38,195 bases of DNA, from contig QZWS01000030.1 of NCBI GenBank assembly GCA_004114245.1, positions 1 through 38,195 on the forward strand, written 5' to 3'. Source of the DNA: Zoopage sp. CT-All. Its lineage: Eukaryota > Zoopagomycota > Zoopagomycetes > Zoopagales > Zoopagaceae. This document shows positions 3,459-22,434 of the stretch, piece by piece (positions within the stretch are counted from its first letter, which is position 1; each line of letters starts with the position of its first letter). The notes beneath the pieces are model-generated. The model ran no database searches, had not been told where the DNA came from, and saw only the letters and a list, made by a program, of their open reading frames with translations. A program made the translations under genes and the position numbers.

Positions 3459-6403
3459 TCATCTCTGTTCAGAGTAGCGCCATATGCGGTAAAGCGCGTG
3501 GACGAGTACAGCCTGCTTCCTCGCTTCGGCCGCCAGTAATGCGACGTGCACACGCTCGTCCACGCGAAACTCAAATCCAAAATGCTGAAAGTCTCGCGAG
3601 TCCAAGCAGGCTGGGCGTCGCGAGACCTTGGCCACAAAGTTTCGGGTGCGTGCGTTAAGGTAGTATGGGATTTGAGTGTAGTCGTAATCATCTCTGGCCA
3701 GCCCATGCAGCCGCAGGACGTGGTACCAGACTGCCTGACGGAAGGGCCATGTGTCTAGCGACGTGCTGTCCGTGGTGATGCTGTAATCGGTGATGCTTTG
3801 AATGTCTTGGAACTCGTCCTCCAACAGTTCACCCAGCCCAGGCAAAAACCTGCTTGTCCATTCGACGCCGTGATCTTCCCACGAATAGTCGTCTTGCATG
3901 CTGACGACCTGGTCTGGCTCGGCGTTCGGATCAAACTCCTCCGCCACCAGCAAGGGCATCGAGTCGGTGACCAGGTCGGCCGCAGGGGCGTCGAGTCCGC
4001 CAACAGCGACATACCGGCCCAGATCTTCAAAAATTGGATTGCGAATAGCGGGCGGTTCTGGAGAGCTGAACGCGACAGGGGGCGGTGGATTTTGTGTCTC
4101 GGCCAGCAGCCGGGATTTTTTACGATCTCGCAGTCGGTTCTTCATGGCCGTGTCAAACGCTAGTGCACAAGTCGTCAGAGGGAGCACGAATGCGTCAGCT
4201 TACTTTCGCCCAGTTCCATGGAGCCAAATGTGGACTTGATATCTGTGGAGGCAGCTTTGAATGACGAGGACGCTCCGCTCACGGTGAAATCGTTTGCACT
4301 CTCGTTGTACCGGCCTATTTGAATCGGTATTGGCCCGAGAGCGCCCGCATGGGCCTGCTCGCCGTGTTGCACAGCAACACCGTTTACATCCGTCCTTTCC
4401 GCGACGAATCCTTTTGCTCGACGCCAAACGCCACGCAGCCTGTCCATCAATTGCGTCGTGTGCTCGCGTATCTCTTCCTCTGGTGGCAGATCCGACACAA
4501 TGTCCAATGATCCAGCATCAGACTCGTTTAGCGTGTCAATGTGTGGAGCGGGAGCCGATGACGCGGTGCTGGATGGCATTGGCGGGATGACAGGCATTTC
4601 TGGGCGAACGGTGCTTCTTCGAGACGATGGAAGGGCGGCAGCGCGCGCTTCGCTGATATCCTTGACAGGCTCCTCGCCGGCAAAGACGGCGCCACCGAGT
4701 GAATCGATCTCGGGCGTGACGCCACAGGCAAGGTATGCAGAGGTCATGCCCTGGAAGATGGCGGCCAGCGCAGCAGCATGAACCAGCTCTCCCATTGTCC
4801 AGGCGTCTCCTGGGCTCGATGTGCTGCCAAGCAGCCAGGCGATATCGTCTGTTTCGTGTAGCCGCCATGGGGCGTCTCTCAACTTGCGCAGGACCCTTGC
4901 AATCCGTCGCAGTTTAGCTGGCACCGAGGGCGCTCGAAGGCCCTCGGAGCCGAGCCAGGAGGCATCACCACCGCACGCGACAAACTCTACGGAGAGCCAT
5001 CCGACGAGCGCCTGACACGCGTCGGCTGCGGCGATAAGCACCCCAATGTAGAATCGCCAGGGACGGGGGAGAGGGCCGGAACGCACCACAGCATCGTTAA
5101 CTCGCCGCACTCGTTCCTGGAACGAGGGAAAGTACGCATAGATGACGATGTGGGCGTGGGTTAGTCTTGCGTTGGTGAGGTAGCTATCGACAAGGTTGCG
5201 CCGCGAGGCGTATAGATCCGTGGAGCGGTGCACGCGATCCGTCGAGTGCCTGGGCTTGAGCGACTTTTTCCGCGCACTGCCCGGATTAGAGGCGGCGGCC
5301 GGGCTGGTGTTGGTGGGGGTGCGATGCTGCATGGGGGTGTACCGCTTCTGCATGGTCACACTGGCGGTCGTCGTCGCGGTGGCCACCGACGAGCCCATCG
5401 AGTACTCCGAGTCGATATCATCGTCCTCGCCGTCGGTGTAGAACACCGAACTCGAGTCCACGGTGGCGCCCTCCTCGTCATTCTCCTCGTCGCAGGCATC
5501 AAAGAAGCCGGGCAAGTCGGCCTCGTGGATGAAAATTGACGGACCGCCCTTGAACCTCGCCTGCGGCACGACTATTCCCATGGCTTTTATCCGGCGCAGC
5601 AGGTCGGTGCACCCTTTGCGCACATCCTGGTAGGGACAGGTGTGGGCGAGGCGAAGGGCGGTGAGGAGCAGGTGCCGGAAGAGGTCTTGTTTCTGAGCAA
5701 ACAAGGCCGAATTCTCTGCCTCGTCGTTGATGAGCTGCTGCTGGTGGTGCTGGTGGTGCTGGTTGGAGGTGTGATCGAAGGGGGCGACCGAGGACGCAAA
5801 AAACCCATCGCCGGCAAACGGCAACGACGCGGCCGTAAACTCCACCGCCGGGGCCTCCGAAGCACTGCGCTCCGCGAACGACAGCGAGGCGGCATTTAAG
5901 GATGACCCGCGACGAATCGGCCATGGCCGCAGCCCAATGCCCGCGGCGCCGCCGACAGCTATCCCCTGCGCCCCGGCACCGGCCAACTCGCTGGCATCCA
6001 CCGGACTGACCGACGCTTCGGACGGCGACGTCGGCGACTCCACTGCGCCCACCGCCCCCTCCAACTCCATCAATGAGCGCGCAAGCGAGCGCACCACGGA
6101 GGAGATAGCGTGCATGGCCTGGGCGCGATCATCGAGGGAAGGGGACAGGAGGGGATGGAACAGCGCCACGCGGGAGCGCGCGCTGCCCGGGAGCAGTGGC
6201 GCAGCCACCGTCGCAGCCGTGACCGAGGTGACGATGCTGGGCGGGGTGCTACGGCAACTGAGCGCGGAAATGGACATGCACGTTGGCGGGGGAAGCTTGA
6301 TTGCGGTGGAGATGTTGGACTGGCCGACCCAACCTGCCTCGTGTAGTTGCTCGGGCCAACCGCGTGCCGGAGTGTCGCGAGGTTGTCGCGAGGTTGACCG
6401 CAT
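3459..6403 (-). CDS. Sestrin family protein with long N-terminal extension
   Basis: Two exons: 6403-4204 and 4159-3459, with a 44-nt intron (donor GTAAGC); product 966 aa. Animal sestrins are about 480-550 aa. Sestrins inhibit TORC1 through GATOR2, some sense leucine, and the N-terminal half has an alkylhydroperoxidase fold. The first ~270 residues are low-complexity. A segment with GPSIFI near 290 resembles the start of animal sestrins, followed by an acidic stretch. The conserved fold begins near 395 (GPLPRPWRFYIGV, then GGDASWL, then WTMGELVHAA). The C-terminal half has WEDHG, the acidic DDYDY (890-894) and LLAAEARKQA. Cys463 matches the peroxidatic Cys, but the partner Tyr and His are Ala and Leu. 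Arg874 and Glu935 match the leucine-anchoring pair of human SESN2 with identical spacing. The start is uncertain: Met at 6277 is possible. Extension above 6403 would run into the next gene. Confidence 0.9.
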
Positions 6404-6628
6404 GAACGCGGCTTGAGCGTAGCGGCAGGGAGCCAGGACGGCAAGGTGGCAGGGCGTCAGAGCCACGCAGAGCACCTTGTCAGCCACGAGCATAGGCATA
6501 GTGCATAGCGCATAGTGCATGCACTTGACTGGGCAGCCACGTGTCCGGCATACGCCACCTAATTTGCGGCCAATTCTCGAGGACGCATCCGGCACGCCAT
6601 TTCGAGCCAACTTTCGGCGGCCTCGTGC
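6404..6628. promoter_or_regulatory. Divergent promoter region, sestrin / TACO1-like
   Basis: These 225 bases lie between the divergent starts of the sestrin and the TACO1-like gene. Around 6491-6524 there are repeated CATAGTGCAT/GCATAG units ending in the perfect palindrome GTGCATGCAC at 6515-6524. No TATA box is clear. Regulatory function is inferred from position alone. Confidence 0.35.
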
Positions 6629-7498
6629 ATGCTCCCCGCAGGCTGTCGGACGCTGGCGACGACGCCGCGCCTGCTCGCAGGCCACAACAAGTGGTCGAAA
6701 ATCAAGCACACCAAGGCGGTGCTCGACAAGCGCCGCGCAACCGCCTTCCAACGCGTCACCCGCCGCATCATCGCCGCCGTCCGTCGCCACGGCCCCGAGC
6801 CCTCCTCCAACCCGATCCTGGCCGCGTGTCTGGCGGACGCCAGAAGGATCCAGCTCCCGAAGGACAATCTCCAGAGTGCGCTGCGGAAGGCCGCGGGCGG
6901 CGGCGCGAAGGATGGCGGGGCGCTGGCGCTGGATGACGTCGAGTACGAGGTCAGCGCGCTCGACGGCGCAGTCGCCGCGATTCTGGAGTGCTCCACCGCG
7001 AATCGAAACAGAGTGATTAAGCATGTGCGCGAAGTGGTCAAATCCCACGGCGGGTCGGTGGGCGGCGTGCGGTATCGGTTTGAACGCAGAGGCGTCATCC
7101 GGTTTGCTCTATCCGAGGCCGTCGCCGCGAGCTCCTTCGCGGGAAAGAGTGAGGATGAGATCGTGGATGCGCTGATGGAGATGGCTATTGAGGCCGGTGC
7201 CCAGGACGTGGCCCGGGTGCACGATGTTGCCGAGGAAGACGAGGCCGCTGCCACGCCCAATGTCACAGTGGAGCTAGTATGCAGCCCCGCGGGTCTTCAG
7301 GCCACGCGGCAAGGCCTCCCATCCACCGTGGATGTGCTCGAGATGGACGTCGAGTACCGCCCGGTGGATCCGGCCTCCGTCGTGATGCTGCCAGACTGGC
7401 AGGATGTGGCCGAGCAGGCTCGCGTTAGAAAGTTCCTTGAAGATCTGGAAAGCGTCGAGGACGTTGTCAAGGTGCATTCGAATGTAGTTGATCTGTGA
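6629..7498 (+). CDS. DPC29: YebC/TACO1-like mitochondrial translation factor
   Basis: Single exon, 289 aa. The family signature AGHNKWSKIKHTKAVLD lies near residue 17 (YebC consensus: AGHSKWanIKHrKa). It is followed by the full-length family fold, including DNLQSAL-like and SHGGSVGGVRYRFERRG motifs, and ends in VVKVHSNV. YebC/TACO1 proteins bind mitochondrial ribosomes and prevent stalling during translation; the yeast relative is Dpc29. The first 16 residues contain Arg and no acidic residues, as expected for a short mitochondrial presequence. The next gene on the same strand, 83 bases on, encodes another mitochondrial ribosome-related GTPase. The start is the first ATG of the frame, 13 codons before the signature. 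The orthology symbol is an inference. Confidence 0.9.
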   Translation: MLPAGCRTLATTPRLLAGHNKWSKIKHTKAVLDKRRATAFQRVTRRIIAAVRRHGPEPSSNPILAACLADARRIQLPKDNLQSALRKAAGGGAKDGGALALDDVEYEVSALDGAVAAILECSTANRNRVIKHVREVVKSHGGSVGGVRYRFERRGVIRFALSEAVAASSFAGKSEDEIVDALMEMAIEAGAQDVARVHDVAEEDEAAATPNVTVELVCSPAGLQATRQGLPSTVDVLEMDVEYRPVDPASVVMLPDWQDVAEQARVRKFLEDLESVEDVVKVHSNVVDL

Positions 7499-10157: not shown

Positions 10158-11091
10158 ATGCCGCTTCGCCTCAAGGTGCTGGCCGGCACGACGCACGCCA
10201 ACCTGCGCCACATCAGCCCTAACGACGAACTCCACCCCATCCGCATAGACTCGGATTGCTTTCGTGGCGAGCTGCGCGTGCGCATCAAGAACTTTTCTGG
10301 AGCGCACCCGCCCCCATCCGCCGCCGCGCCACGCCCGCGCCGCCTTGCCAACTCGACTTACTTTGCCACCAACACCACCTGCACCTACTCCATTGACTTT
10401 CGCGGCCAGTTCTTGGTGCCCGGCATCACGTTTGACGATCTCGTGTTTGGCAACATTTTCGAGAAACCGCTGCGGCTGCCCCCGGGCGCGGGGCTGGGGC
10501 TGCGGGTGGTGAAGAAGTTCATAGATCCGGGGCTGGAGGCGGATCTCTGGTGCGCCGAGCCCTGGGCCCGTAGCCCCGTGATTGTCACCATGAATGCGGT
10601 CACCGTGTCGCCCCTTGCGGATACCGCCGTCGCAGGCACGAGCGCCGAGGCGTCGCAGTCCTGCAAACCGCTGGTTGAGGCAAACACGCTGAAGCGCGCA
10701 GATGGAACGCCGGTTGGTGATGTGGCTCAACGCAAGAAGTACTACTCCAAGGCCGTCGCGCGCCAGGCGGCAACCTACGCCACAGACTGCATCTACGGAT
10801 TTGATTTTTGCAACGGGATGGCTGATTTTAATGAGTTTGCGGTGCGCATACCTGGGTGGGGCTACGTCTCGGTGCTCCCGCTATGGGATGGGCAGGTAAG
10901 CATTGCAGCAGCCATCTTTACCTGTCGATGCTCATCGCCGGCATTTATAGAGTCTCAAGTATGTGCTCGAGACCAAGGATCGGAGGCACACGGTGTTTGT
11001 AGTTGAGTTTCAGCTGGTGGACGTTGCAGACACCGGGGATGAGGCCAATGCTGGTATTGCCCAAGTGCCGGCGCCAGTGGCCATTAGGTAG
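10158..11091 (+). CDS. DUF1769 (UPF0590-like) protein, intracellular copy A
   Basis: Two exons: 10158-10895 and 10951-11091, with a 55-nt intron of normal type (GTAAGC...TAG); product 292 aa. It matches the fungal DUF1769 pattern: an N-terminal strand LRLKVLAGT, RVRIKNF, an STYF block, YSIDFRGQF, DDLVFGNIF, FIDPGLEADL, EPWARSPVIVTMN, then a C-terminal block ending in FVVEFQLVDV after the intron. The family's function is unknown. Unlike the next two genes there is no signal peptide: the protein starts MPLRLKV, directly at the domain. ATG 10158 was chosen because the frame upstream has no ATG. It is the first of three tandem family members within 4 kb. The last intron falls at the same protein position in all three. 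Confidence 0.88.
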
Positions 11092-13022: not shown

Positions 13023-14199
13023 ATGCCCACCTATAGACACTGCATTTCACTGCTTTTGTGCGTCGCGCTTGTTGCTGCAGGACCTGCGCATGCGTCAAAG
13101 TCAAAGAAGGAGAAGCAGGTGAAGCAGGTGGTGTACGTCAACTATACCCCACCGCCTATGCCCACTCGTATTGGTCCTCCTAAAATGATGACGCCCTCCG
13201 TCCAACTTACACCTACCGTTGCTGCCTCTGTCCAACTTCCGCCTGTCTGCCTCCTCAAGATCTCCGTCGGCACGCCGGAAAGTGAGATGGTGCAGATCAC
13301 ACCAAATAACGATCACGACCCAGTACGGATCAGTCCACATGGCAATGGCCGCATGCACGTCAAGTCATCTCTCTTTAATGGCGAGTTCCGCCTCCGCTTC
13401 CGCAAGAAGGGTACTCATCCGCCATCTTCCTCGTTGACTACGGAGACGCCAGAGGAACGGACACAGAGGCGGGCCAGTTCAGAATACTTTGTGGTGGAAA
13501 ATGTGAACATGGTTTCCTTCGACTTTCGCGGGCGGTTCCTCAAGGAATTCGGATTTGACGACCTTTATTTCGCCACCGTACTCAGCGCACCAGTGGATTT
13601 TCCCTTCTTACAGCCCCTCTTTGAGATTGGCAAAGGTAGAATCGACCCAGGCATGCAGGGAAACCTCAATGCTGAGCAACCATGGATTCGCAGTCCTGTT
13701 GCTGTGACCATGAGAACGATTACCGAATCGCCTGCTCTTCCCAAGAACCTGCTTGGGATGCCATATCAGAAAACTGAAGCATCGAGGCCACTGACAGAAT
13801 CGATTCGTAAATCTGACGGAAGTGAATTCCAAGGGGCAACAGACAAAGAGCGCAGGTGGAACCGCAAGCATTATTTTGCAAATCCCGTCAATCTGCATGG
13901 TCGAAAGTTTAACCCTGATAATTTCTACGAGTTCGATTTTGCCAACGAGTTTATGAACTTCGACGAATGCTCTATAAATTTACCCAAGGAGAAATTCGGA
14001 AGCATTCCTTTCTTGCCACCTTCAATCTCTGTCCTGCCATTTGTCAATAAAGAAAATCCGCAGGCGAGTCTCCTTCGCATATTTATTTATCTTGCTGATT
14101 GATCGATAGAGTGTCACTTTAATGCTGACTACGGGAAAATGGGATGTTGTATTCGCCATCAAGATCGAGCTCATCAAAGCCAGGGAGGCCCGCCAGTAG
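13023..14199 (+). CDS. DUF1769 copy C, predicted secreted
   Basis: Two exons: 13023-14063 and 14110-14199; product 376 aa. The signal peptide (HCISLLLCVALVAAGPAHA) is followed by a Lys-rich linker and ~45 Pro/Thr/Val-rich residues that copies A and B lack. The DUF1769 domain then runs LLKISVGTPES, FNGEFRLRFR, SFDFRGRFL, RIDPGM, EQPWIRSPVAVTMR and YEFDFANEF. The last intron has a GC donor (CAG|GCGAGT...TAG, 46 nt). Splicing restores VVFAIKIELIK, which aligns with the ends of copies A and B. If the GC intron were kept, the protein would end 13 residues later. ATG 13023 was chosen because it begins the signal peptide, and its first codons share an identical 24-base stretch with copy B. Confidence 0.85.
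14064..14109 (+). other. GC-AG intron in DUF1769 copy C
   Basis: This is a 46-nt intron with donor GCGAGT and acceptor TAG, at the same protein position as the GC-AG intron of copy B and the GT-AG intron of copy A. The alternative GT four bases on gives an unrelated frame. Confidence 0.75.
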
Positions 14200-20694: not shown

Positions 20695-21075
20695 TCAACT
20701 TGTCCCATCAGCATAATCATTGATATCCCTATATGCCATCCTAAGCGGTGACCATGTCTTGTCACTTGAGCTGCGGCGGGAGGTGTGATGCACCACAAAG
20801 GGGGCACGGTTCTCTTTACCAGCAGCACCAGCGACTGCACTGCCGTGGTAATGGGGGTGTGTATAACGCGAGGGATGCTGCTTGGTATACGCTTTAATAC
20901 CGATTGAGGGGTTGAGGGGCTTGGGCAGCATCAATAGCTTAGTGGGTCGTACACGGTCATCAACAATGTCGTAGGACGAAGATGCACCAGCCAGGATGGA
21001 AATTCCCAGCAAGAGCATGGCTGTGCTGAGGAGAGCGGGACGATGAACGGATTTCATGGATTTCATGGATTTCAC
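20695..21075 (-). CDS. Small predicted secreted protein
   Basis: Single exon, 126 aa. It starts with repeated MKS codons and has a clear hydrophobic signal segment (STAMLLLGISILAGASSS). The remaining ~95 residues are basic, rich in His, Ser and Arg, with no cysteines and no known domain (PHYHGSAVAG, HTSRRSSSDK). Three in-frame ATGs (21075, 21066, 21057) are possible; the third gives the most compact signal peptide. The 5' end overlaps the first possible start of the divergent bZIP gene. It is supported as a gene by the signal peptide and by the lack of a competing frame downstream of 21043, but not by any family match. Function unknown. Confidence 0.5.
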   Translation of the reverse strand: MKSMKSMKSVHRPALLSTAMLLLGISILAGASSSYDIVDDRVRPTKLLMLPKPLNPSIGIKAYTKQHPSRYTHPHYHGSAVAGAAGKENRAPFVVHHTSRRSSSDKTWSPLRMAYRDINDYADGTS

Positions 21076-22434
21076 GATGGCGAGGTTGGATCAATGGGGG
21101 AGTTTGCGTCTGCCATGTGGCCGAAAACCAGGAGCCCCAAACACGAGATGCTGCCCCCGGAATCGGCCACTCCAGCTTCGGGGCCGGCTTCGCCTGCATC
21201 CGCAAAACGTGCTCGTGAAGTAAATGTCGTCCCGGAGAACGATCGCTTGCCGTCGACTAAGCGCCTGCGTCCACTTCTGCCGATGCTTGCGCCCAGCATC
21301 ACCATCTATCCCTTGTCCGCTCATCTCGGGGCAGTCCATTCTTCGAGCATGTCGAAGAAAAGTGATGAACCAGCTGATCCGGTATCGCCGCCCCAGCTTG
21401 TTGATGCTGTAAAAGCTTCCTTGTCTCCCCACACCCCGACCGCTTTCGACACCTCTACCTCGTCACCACACTCGACTGGTGCCGTTCTTGCAAAGCAAAA
21501 GGATCGTCAAATCCGAAATCGAGAATCAGCCCTGCGATCGCGCCAGCGGCAGCGCGACCAGCTCGAGCACCTTGCCACAACGACGCGTATACTCACGCAG
21601 GATAACGAACTGCTTCGCTCGCGCGTTAAAGCGCTCGAAGGACGGGTCGTAGAGTTGGAGACGGAAAAGGAGGAATGGCTCCGGATGCTAGACTCGCTGG
21701 TTGACTCGCACGCCCGAGTTGGTGGGCTAAACGACGCGATGATGCCCACGCCCGAGTCAACTGCGCAGGATACGTCGTCTCCTGATCCGTATCAAGTCAC
21801 GCGGGGGCTATTCGATACGTCGTTCACGCTGGCTCCCCATAGCGGAGATGCCGAGTCGGTGTTTGAGAGCATGGAGACGACCACGACGCGAATCCAGCCG
21901 TACGACTGGTCCCGTATGTGGGCCGCCGTGGATGCAGAAACCAGCTGGCAGCAGGATGACAGCAGCCCGCTTTCGTCGTGGTCGCCGTCGTACACATCCA
22001 GAGCACGCGGCAGTGATAGCCGTTCGCCAGTGTGGGCGAATGACAATGTCTATGGCGCAGATATGTGGAGCCCGAGTGCGTGGATGATGGCCTCGCCGAC
22101 AAGCCATTGCCGACTGGATTCAACGGCACATGTCGTATCGCCGCCCACGACTCAGCTATCGCTGTCATTGATCGTCATGCTGCTTTGCTCCGTTGCACTC
22201 ATTGCTGTGCCGCTGCCGATTTTGCTCCGAATGCGTGATGGCTATCAAGGGCATGTTGCACCACAGCCATCGTCCTCTACAGTCCCGGCAGCTATGCTCG
22301 AGTCAAAGGTCGACATTGAGCAGCTGCATGTTGGCCTGGGTGTGGCAAGCTTTGATCCCAAAAATGCTCTGCAGCACAACCGACCAAGGAGGAGACTGGC
22401 TGCAAATGCTGCGGCCCCGTCAAAAAGGACGTGA
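21043..22434 (+). CDS. bZIP transcription factor with C-terminal membrane segment (ATF6-like)
   Basis: Single exon, 463 aa (446 aa if started at ATG 21094, which avoids overlap with the divergent gene). The bZIP basic region near residues 151-172 contains NRESALRSRQRQRD, close in form to the ATF6/CREB3 group (NRESA..SR). Five leucines at strict 7-residue spacing follow. An acidic, Ser/Thr-rich region comes next. A single hydrophobic helix (LIVMLLCSVALIAVPLPILL, about residues 374-393) contains prolines, as in substrates of site-2 protease. The last ~70 residues would be luminal and include RRRL (449-452), fitting the RxxL form cut by site-1 protease. I infer an ER-tethered factor released by proteolysis. 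Fungal UPR bZIPs (Hac1) are not membrane proteins, so this is notable. No protease gene is in the window. Confidence 0.8.
   Translation: MNGFHGFHGFHDGEVGSMGEFASAMWPKTRSPKHEMLPPESATPASGPASPASAKRAREVNVVPENDRLPSTKRLRPLLPMLAPSITIYPLSAHLGAVHSSSMSKKSDEPADPVSPPQLVDAVKASLSPHTPTAFDTSTSSPHSTGAVLAKQKDRQIRNRESALRSRQRQRDQLEHLATTTRILTQDNELLRSRVKALEGRVVELETEKEEWLRMLDSLVDSHARVGGLNDAMMPTPESTAQDTSSPDPYQVTRGLFDTSFTLAPHSGDAESVFESMETTTTRIQPYDWSRMWAAVDAETSWQQDDSSPLSSWSPSYTSRARGSDSRSPVWANDNVYGADMWSPSAWMMASPTSHCRLDSTAHVVSPPTTQLSLSLIVMLLCSVALIAVPLPILLRMRDGYQGHVAPQPSSSTVPAAMLESKVDIEQLHVGLGVASFDPKNALQHNRPRRRLAANAAAPSKRT
21051..21077. repeat. Three 9-bp direct repeats over two start regions
   Basis: ATTTCATGG is repeated twice, followed by a third, diverged unit. 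On the minus strand each unit supplies an ATG (MKS repeats) for the small secreted protein. On the plus strand it encodes GFH repeats in the possible N-terminus of the bZIP protein. Copy-number change would add or remove start codons without shifting either frame. Confidence 0.7.

Follow-up and report, generated by a model that had tools for sequence, protein, structure and literature searches.

A bZIP protein with a putative transmembrane helix encoded in the genome of the fungus Zoopage sp. CT-All

Accounts of the ER stress response in fungi usually name only the IRE1-Hac1 pathway, and the membrane-tethered transcription factors of fungi include the SREBP Sre1 and Mga2/Spt23. In the ATF6/CREB3 factors of animals, a single transmembrane helix and then a luminal tail come after the bZIP, and XBP1u likewise carries a membrane segment. 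Among the plant factors, bZIP17 and bZIP28 are described with the string RRIL, luminal tails of more than 300 residues and a cytosolic DNA-binding part (PMC9237531), and bZIP60 as a bZIP of the UPR with a membrane segment in its unspliced form (PMC4891664). ATF6 is treated as a metazoan pathway in an account that gives anaerobic fungi IRE1 and PERK-like kinases (PMC10512342). The bZIPs described for the UPR in fungal genomes with IRE1 include Hac1, HacA, Hxl1 and Cib1 (PMC6490947; PMC3154848), and a candidate family of fungal membrane-bound transcription factors is presented as having an NDT80-type domain and not a bZIP (PMC13294678). We have carried out a search of the open-licence literature on fungal membrane-bound or UPR bZIPs and on the UPR of non-Dikarya, at the level of titles and abstract starts, and no fungal membrane-tethered bZIP was found among the matches listed.

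In contig QZWS01000030.1 of Zoopage sp. CT-All (hereafter the window, i.e., the whole stretch of 38,195 nucleotides that was analyzed, with a G+C content of 56%) there is an open reading frame (ORF) whose product has the same order of parts as the ATF6/CREB3 factors, a bZIP and then a single, here putative, helix and a presumed luminal tail. This architecture is real and unusual. The coordinates of its features, including two possible splicing signals discussed below, are listed in Table 1.

Table 1. Features of the bZIP ORF; positions refer to the window.
Feature	Position	Strand	Remarks
Membrane-tethered bZIP ORF (putative)	21043..22434	+	463 aa from ATG, single exon as read
Basic region, residues 151-172	21493..21558	+	Pfam bZIP_1
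Leucine zipper, residues 173-219	21559..21699	+	Heptad register; helix 145-233 in model
Loose IRE1-like loop pair, CAGCCCG (21963) and CCGCCCA (22141)	21963..22147	+	Neither fits strict consensus
Possible spliceosomal intron of 132 nt, in frame (weak candidate)	22135..22266	+	Would delete helix; weak 5' site
Putative transmembrane helix, residues 371-395, VPLP kink	22153..22227	+	Hydropathy; low-confidence model
Presumed luminal tail, residues 397-463 (67 residues)	22231..22431	+	Follows helix
RRRL, residues 449-452, proposed S1P site	22387..22398	+	String match

The frame that holds the ORF is open for 498 codons, and the G+C content of the ORF by codon position (0.61/0.53/0.60) has a weak periodicity. 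The Pfam model bZIP_1 matched residues 150–209 with 34.0 bits (E 3.3e-8), above the cut-off of 27.6 bits. The original prediction had located in this ORF an ATF6/CREB3-style basic region, NRESALRSR, and five heptad leucines, and both are there: the motif begins at residue 159, and the leucines are L177, L184, L191, L198 and L205, followed at the next heptads by W212 and L219. The run NRESA occurs in the basic region of ATF6 as well. N188 occupies an “a” position of the zipper, and the spacing between N159 and L177 is 18, as in GCN4. Judged from this basic region and a zipper in canonical register, the protein belongs to the bZIP superfamily. In the AlphaFold2 model, built from the single sequence, the bZIP helix had block means of 95–98 over residues 151–220; the mean pLDDT of the whole model was 52, so that only this helix can be considered reliable. 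The best match of the bZIP to a solved structure was CREB, below significance (E 0.37), and up to E 1 the Pfam families detected were bZIP and weak coiled-coil ones, nothing else. At the N-terminus of the protein a short tandem repeat (21043–21080, forward strand) is translated as FHGFHGFH.

No homologue of the whole protein was found at E 0.01 among 7997 candidates scored, nor one of residues 145–225 at E 10 among 160 candidates, in a database with few relatives even of a conserved neighbor gene (four matches, the best with 33% identity). With no homologue to compare, neither the gene nor its helix can be called conserved. Within the genome, a second bZIP model (PF07716) gave nine places, seven of which were the bZIPs found before, the one in the window included. 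The other two were rejected, one reading as a bHLH-zipper (L046) and the other as a coiled coil (L047), and the genome count stands at seven.

A placement with ATF6/CREB3 was not obtained in a bZIP tree of 23 rows, made of these seven proteins and 16 reference sequences. Thirteen of its 20 inner branches were open and a single one was starred, that joining another bZIP of this genome with Pap1; the window bZIP, whose end branch measured 3.04, stood ungrouped, apart from ATF6 and CREB3 as well as from the plant factors. Over the 22 positions of the basic region, the counts were 12 with bZIP28, 11 with GBF1 and 10 with both Atf1 and the paralogue L007, and nine with each of ATF6, Hac1, bZIP60, HY5, Gcn4 and the paralogues L001, L004 and L006. 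The likeness to plant bZIP17/28, which have a membrane helix after the bZIP, includes the top count of bZIP28 in what is a small panel. Local alignment scores, in the same small panel, were 98 for Atf1, 87 for GBF1, 83 for bZIP60, 80 for L001, 78 for ATF6 and 70 for bZIP28, and the Atf1 of S. pombe at their head is a soluble fungal factor. The run KKxYxxxLE is found after the basic region in the ATF6/CREB3 references, but also in CREB1, HY5, bZIP28 and bZIP60, so that it would be necessary at best for membership of ATF6/CREB3; it is absent from the window protein, which reads QRDQLEHLA at that place. On these comparisons, calling the window bZIP an ATF6 orthologue is not supported.

The single proline-containing hydrophobic helix that had been proposed after the zipper was recovered, with its top 19-residue window (KD19) at residues 377–395 and a mean hydropathy of 2.78; the membrane helix was called from hydropathy alone. 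Residue shuffles of the protein had a mean maximum KD19 of 1.19 (sd 0.29) and none of 2000 reached 2.78, nor did any of 5000 codon shuffles. Values of at least 2.2 were found in six of the 161 open stretches of the window with 100 codons or more, the bZIP ORF being the third, which indicates that hydrophobic stretches are not rare in the window; here one follows a bZIP. None of the six other bZIPs found had a peak as strong (0.53 to 1.77), the comparison covering their open frames. One of them, L006 (contig C410, reverse strand), is moderately hydrophobic near its C-terminus, at frame residues 405–423 (KD19 1.77). The AlphaFold2 model of the window protein has a kinked helix pair in this region (369–388 and 390–402, block means 57–69), and the kink falls at prolines. 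Of charged residues, the 15 positions before the helix include one R plus one D, and the 15 after it two R plus one D; these flank charges, together with a tail that is net positive, do not favor an N-inside orientation. For bZIP17 and bZIP28, predictors had assigned the DNA-binding parts to the lumen, and protease digestion located them in the cytosol (PMC9237531). A hydrophobic membrane-spanning helix outside the DNA-binding domain marks the membrane-bound transcription factors as a class, and by hydropathy the protein has one.

The presumed luminal tail contains neither cysteine nor N-glycosylation sequon (nine K/R and five D/E), and hence nothing in it resembles a folded luminal sensor. 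It differs from those of plant bZIP17/28 in being only 67 residues long and in having RRRL. This string, put forward originally as an S1P site, is indeed present, separated from the helix by about 53 residues and from the C-terminus by 11, and is the sole candidate S1P string in the tail. However, RxxL arises in 37% of shuffled tails, i.e., near chance, and with R as its third residue RRRL fails the S1P consensus Rx[LIT][KL], itself described as so small and degenerate that targets cannot be recognized from it without other evidence (PMC9237531). The string stands, and its reading as an S1P site is not supported. A kexin/furin-like string, RPRR (447–450), overlaps RRRL and would, from its letters, suit a kexin.

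The genome searched for proteases and UPR genes amounts to 8.62 Mb in 419 contigs. IRE1 is present, as two RNase pieces, with yeast IRE1 matching at E 1.4e-66, and so is signal peptide peptidase (SPP), which matches at E 4.9e-76 within a single 417-codon frame and has the motifs YD and GLGD. Homologues of S2P (by profile and pattern) and of S1P (by eye), which a mechanism of the ATF6 kind would lead one to look for, were not recognized. The S2P profile PF02163 gave no candidate over the genome, and the same model matched 14 of 14 prokaryote controls; the pattern HExGHxxA was found at six places (two with the reversed control), none of which reads as S2P, one being an FtsH-like AAA protease and another perhaps of the same kind. 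The S8 subtilase model PF00082 had 22 matches. Eight of these loci were translated, by eye seven secreted proteinase-K-like proteins and one of the PA-domain type, and nine further stretches were scanned for catalytic motifs, eight of them giving frames with S8 motifs (two, L029 and L036, belong to genes covered before). The remaining stretch, L031 on contig C188, was read by eye as a kexin from its HGTRCAGEI run. No S1P was recognized by eye among the S8 loci read.

As a control of completeness we used PF00227, which gave six pieces at five loci. The 20S proteasome is expected to have 14 genes, and finding five of them implies that the genome is partial or that an exon-wise search misses split genes; the absences of S1P and S2P are therefore weak. 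None of the 33 contigs with listed sizes is shorter than 10,717 bases, a hint that the assembly lacks short contigs. The DUF2014 domain of Sre1 was not found in the genome, by a search run without positive control, and a rhomboid match (E 6.5e-4) rose above the cut-off only with its frame neighbors and has two stops inside.

Two explanations would dispense with a permanent membrane anchor. In an ordinary soluble fungal bZIP the hydrophobic stretch would be spliced out, buried or used as another interaction region, and the in-frame candidate intron of Table 1, the weak codon periodicity near the C-terminus and the lack of homologues that could show conservation of the helix all speak for this. 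Relaxed rules yield seven candidate introns that overlap the helix, four of them in frame, and the one listed is the shortest; yet it is longer than the two introns that were identified by eye, of 46 nt and 51 nt, and its 5' site is weak. Besides, the helix is the third of six membrane-like stretches among 161 and far above the shuffles of its own protein, and we consider a soluble factor unlikely. The second explanation, an IRE1 substrate whose helix belongs to the unspliced form and is lost on splicing, has a precedent in plant bZIP60 (PMC4891664), and the IRE1 gene is present in this genome. We scanned the ORF for loops of the form C.G[CA].[GC]., loose sites being permitted one stem mismatch and C at the sixth loop position, a procedure that recovers both sites of a stretch of human XBP1. 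The strict consensus has G in that sixth place (XBP1, HAC1), and no strict-consensus hairpin was found in the ORF; no site had a perfect 4-pair stem, one had 3 pairs and there was no 3-pair couple. Nevertheless, such a negative scan has little weight since 153 of 300 shuffled ORFs were also without a 4-pair site. What the ORF does contain is the loose pair at 21963 and 22141, and excising 21966–22143 (178 nt) would shift the frame, end the protein at 316 aa and drop the helix. Against this, 184 of 500 shuffled ORFs contain a loose pair too, so that it is near chance, and the predicted new C-terminus would have only 7–8 residues, shorter than the active tails of known IRE1-spliced factors. The ORF is thus unlike bZIP60 and XBP1 in its lack of consensus hairpins, and unlike Hac1, HacA, Hxl1 and Cib1 in that no convincing unconventional intron was detected in it and a helix is present. 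An IRE1 intron controlling the helix was dropped as an explanation and the whole scheme appears very unlikely. A hairpin pair that would lengthen the frame of another bZIP, L005, was judged to be due to chance. In the paralogue L007 (contig C382), a CCGCAGA loop with an 8-pair stem is located at position 1056 of the reverse strand, 5' of the bZIP and with no partner site.

The other two explanations keep the anchor and differ in how the factor would be released. An ATF6/CREB3-like bZIP freed by S1P and S2P would account for the architecture of bZIP and following helix and for the highest basic-region count, which is with a factor also cut by S2P (bZIP28), and the genome keeps sestrin, another gene shared with animals. 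Against it, the only S1P-like string is near chance and off consensus, the tail is short and has neither cysteine nor sequon, KKxYxxxLE is missing, the tree, with most of its inner branches open, gives no ATF6/CREB3 grouping, and ATF6, with 9/22, does no better than Hac1, HY5, Gcn4 and three of the paralogues, the best local score being that of Atf1. With the absences of S2P and, by eye, S1P added at their low weight, release of this kind seems quite improbable. Equally doubtful is a factor of the Mga2/Spt23 kind, i.e., one released through the ubiquitin-proteasome system that would sense membrane lipids rather than ER protein folding. Those proteins are in general built in this way, with a single C-terminal helix and a DNA-binding part in the cytosol, but their DNA-binding domain is different from the bZIP of the window protein, as is that of Sre1, and nothing beyond the bZIP and weak coiled-coil families was seen in Pfam up to E 1.

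The explanation that we prefer, with a probability of about one half, is that the ORF encodes a single-pass type II membrane-tethered bZIP, of a fungus probably outside the Dikarya, that would be dormant until cut near the helix, SPP being the likeliest cutter. The first 370 residues, which include the bZIP, would lie on the cytosolic side, the kinked helix would hold the protein in the endomembrane system and the short cysteine-free tail would face the lumen. A cut within or beside the helix would then free the bZIP half for the nucleus. Since no S2P was found and SPP is present, SPP is the first choice for this cut, an S2P encoded in missing sequence being a less likely alternative. With its 67 residues the tail is long for a direct cut by SPP, and trimming by another protease might perhaps come before. 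The substrates reported for SPP include ER membrane-bound transcription factors (PMC6490947). As for the trigger, ER stress would be a plausible candidate, pointed to by the architecture and the presence of IRE1. Of the proteolysis-controlled ER-stress bZIP originally envisaged, the bZIP with a single strong helix is supported, and the S1P site and the ATF6/CREB3 placement are not. Among the outcomes named at the outset as refuting it, a missing membrane helix was not encountered, the absence of S2P was encountered nominally and carries little weight, and what bears on a purely fungal soluble clade is the top local score of Atf1.

If a tethered fungal bZIP is confirmed, either an ATF6-like arm existed before animals and fungi diverged, with most fungi losing it later, or tethering re-evolved, two possibilities that could be tested by sampling non-Dikarya genomes. 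A more ambitious version, in which early-diverging fungi kept an ancestral tethered-bZIP arm of the ER stress response that was lost in Dikarya and is cut by SPP and not by S1P/S2P, we regard as rather improbable; were it true, fungi would not be limited to the IRE1 arm.

Some other features of this genome are worth recording. Secreted S8 genes are many for 8.6 Mb (contigs C93, C72, C59, C137, C338, C382, C253, C68, C31, C325, C169 and C51); some of them share a contig (C72, C93) and some of the S8 matches contain stops. Subtilases of Zoopagomycota mycoparasites have been described as generally more numerous, partly proteinase-K-like and, in two species, mostly single-domain (PMC6784888). At least five matches to Zn2Cys6 domains were found in the genome. 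The sestrin (PA26, PF04636; E 1.3e-26) is encoded in the window at 4175–7024 on the reverse strand, and is described as a gene shared with animals (PMC11836306); it belongs to a leucine-sensor family found in early-diverging fungi. The bZIP that joins Pap1 in the tree and the Zn2Cys6 domains are fungal marks. Taken with the low number of the latter (a lower bound) and the subtilase set, the sestrin led us to reject a Malassezia-like basidiomycete as the source, and these markers suggest a fungus outside the Dikarya, perhaps zoopagomycotan. On the forward strand, a Duc1-domain protein (PF08588) is encoded at 13023–14102, and an ORF a few kb before it (10158–11006, also forward) looks similar by eye and is perhaps a paralogue.
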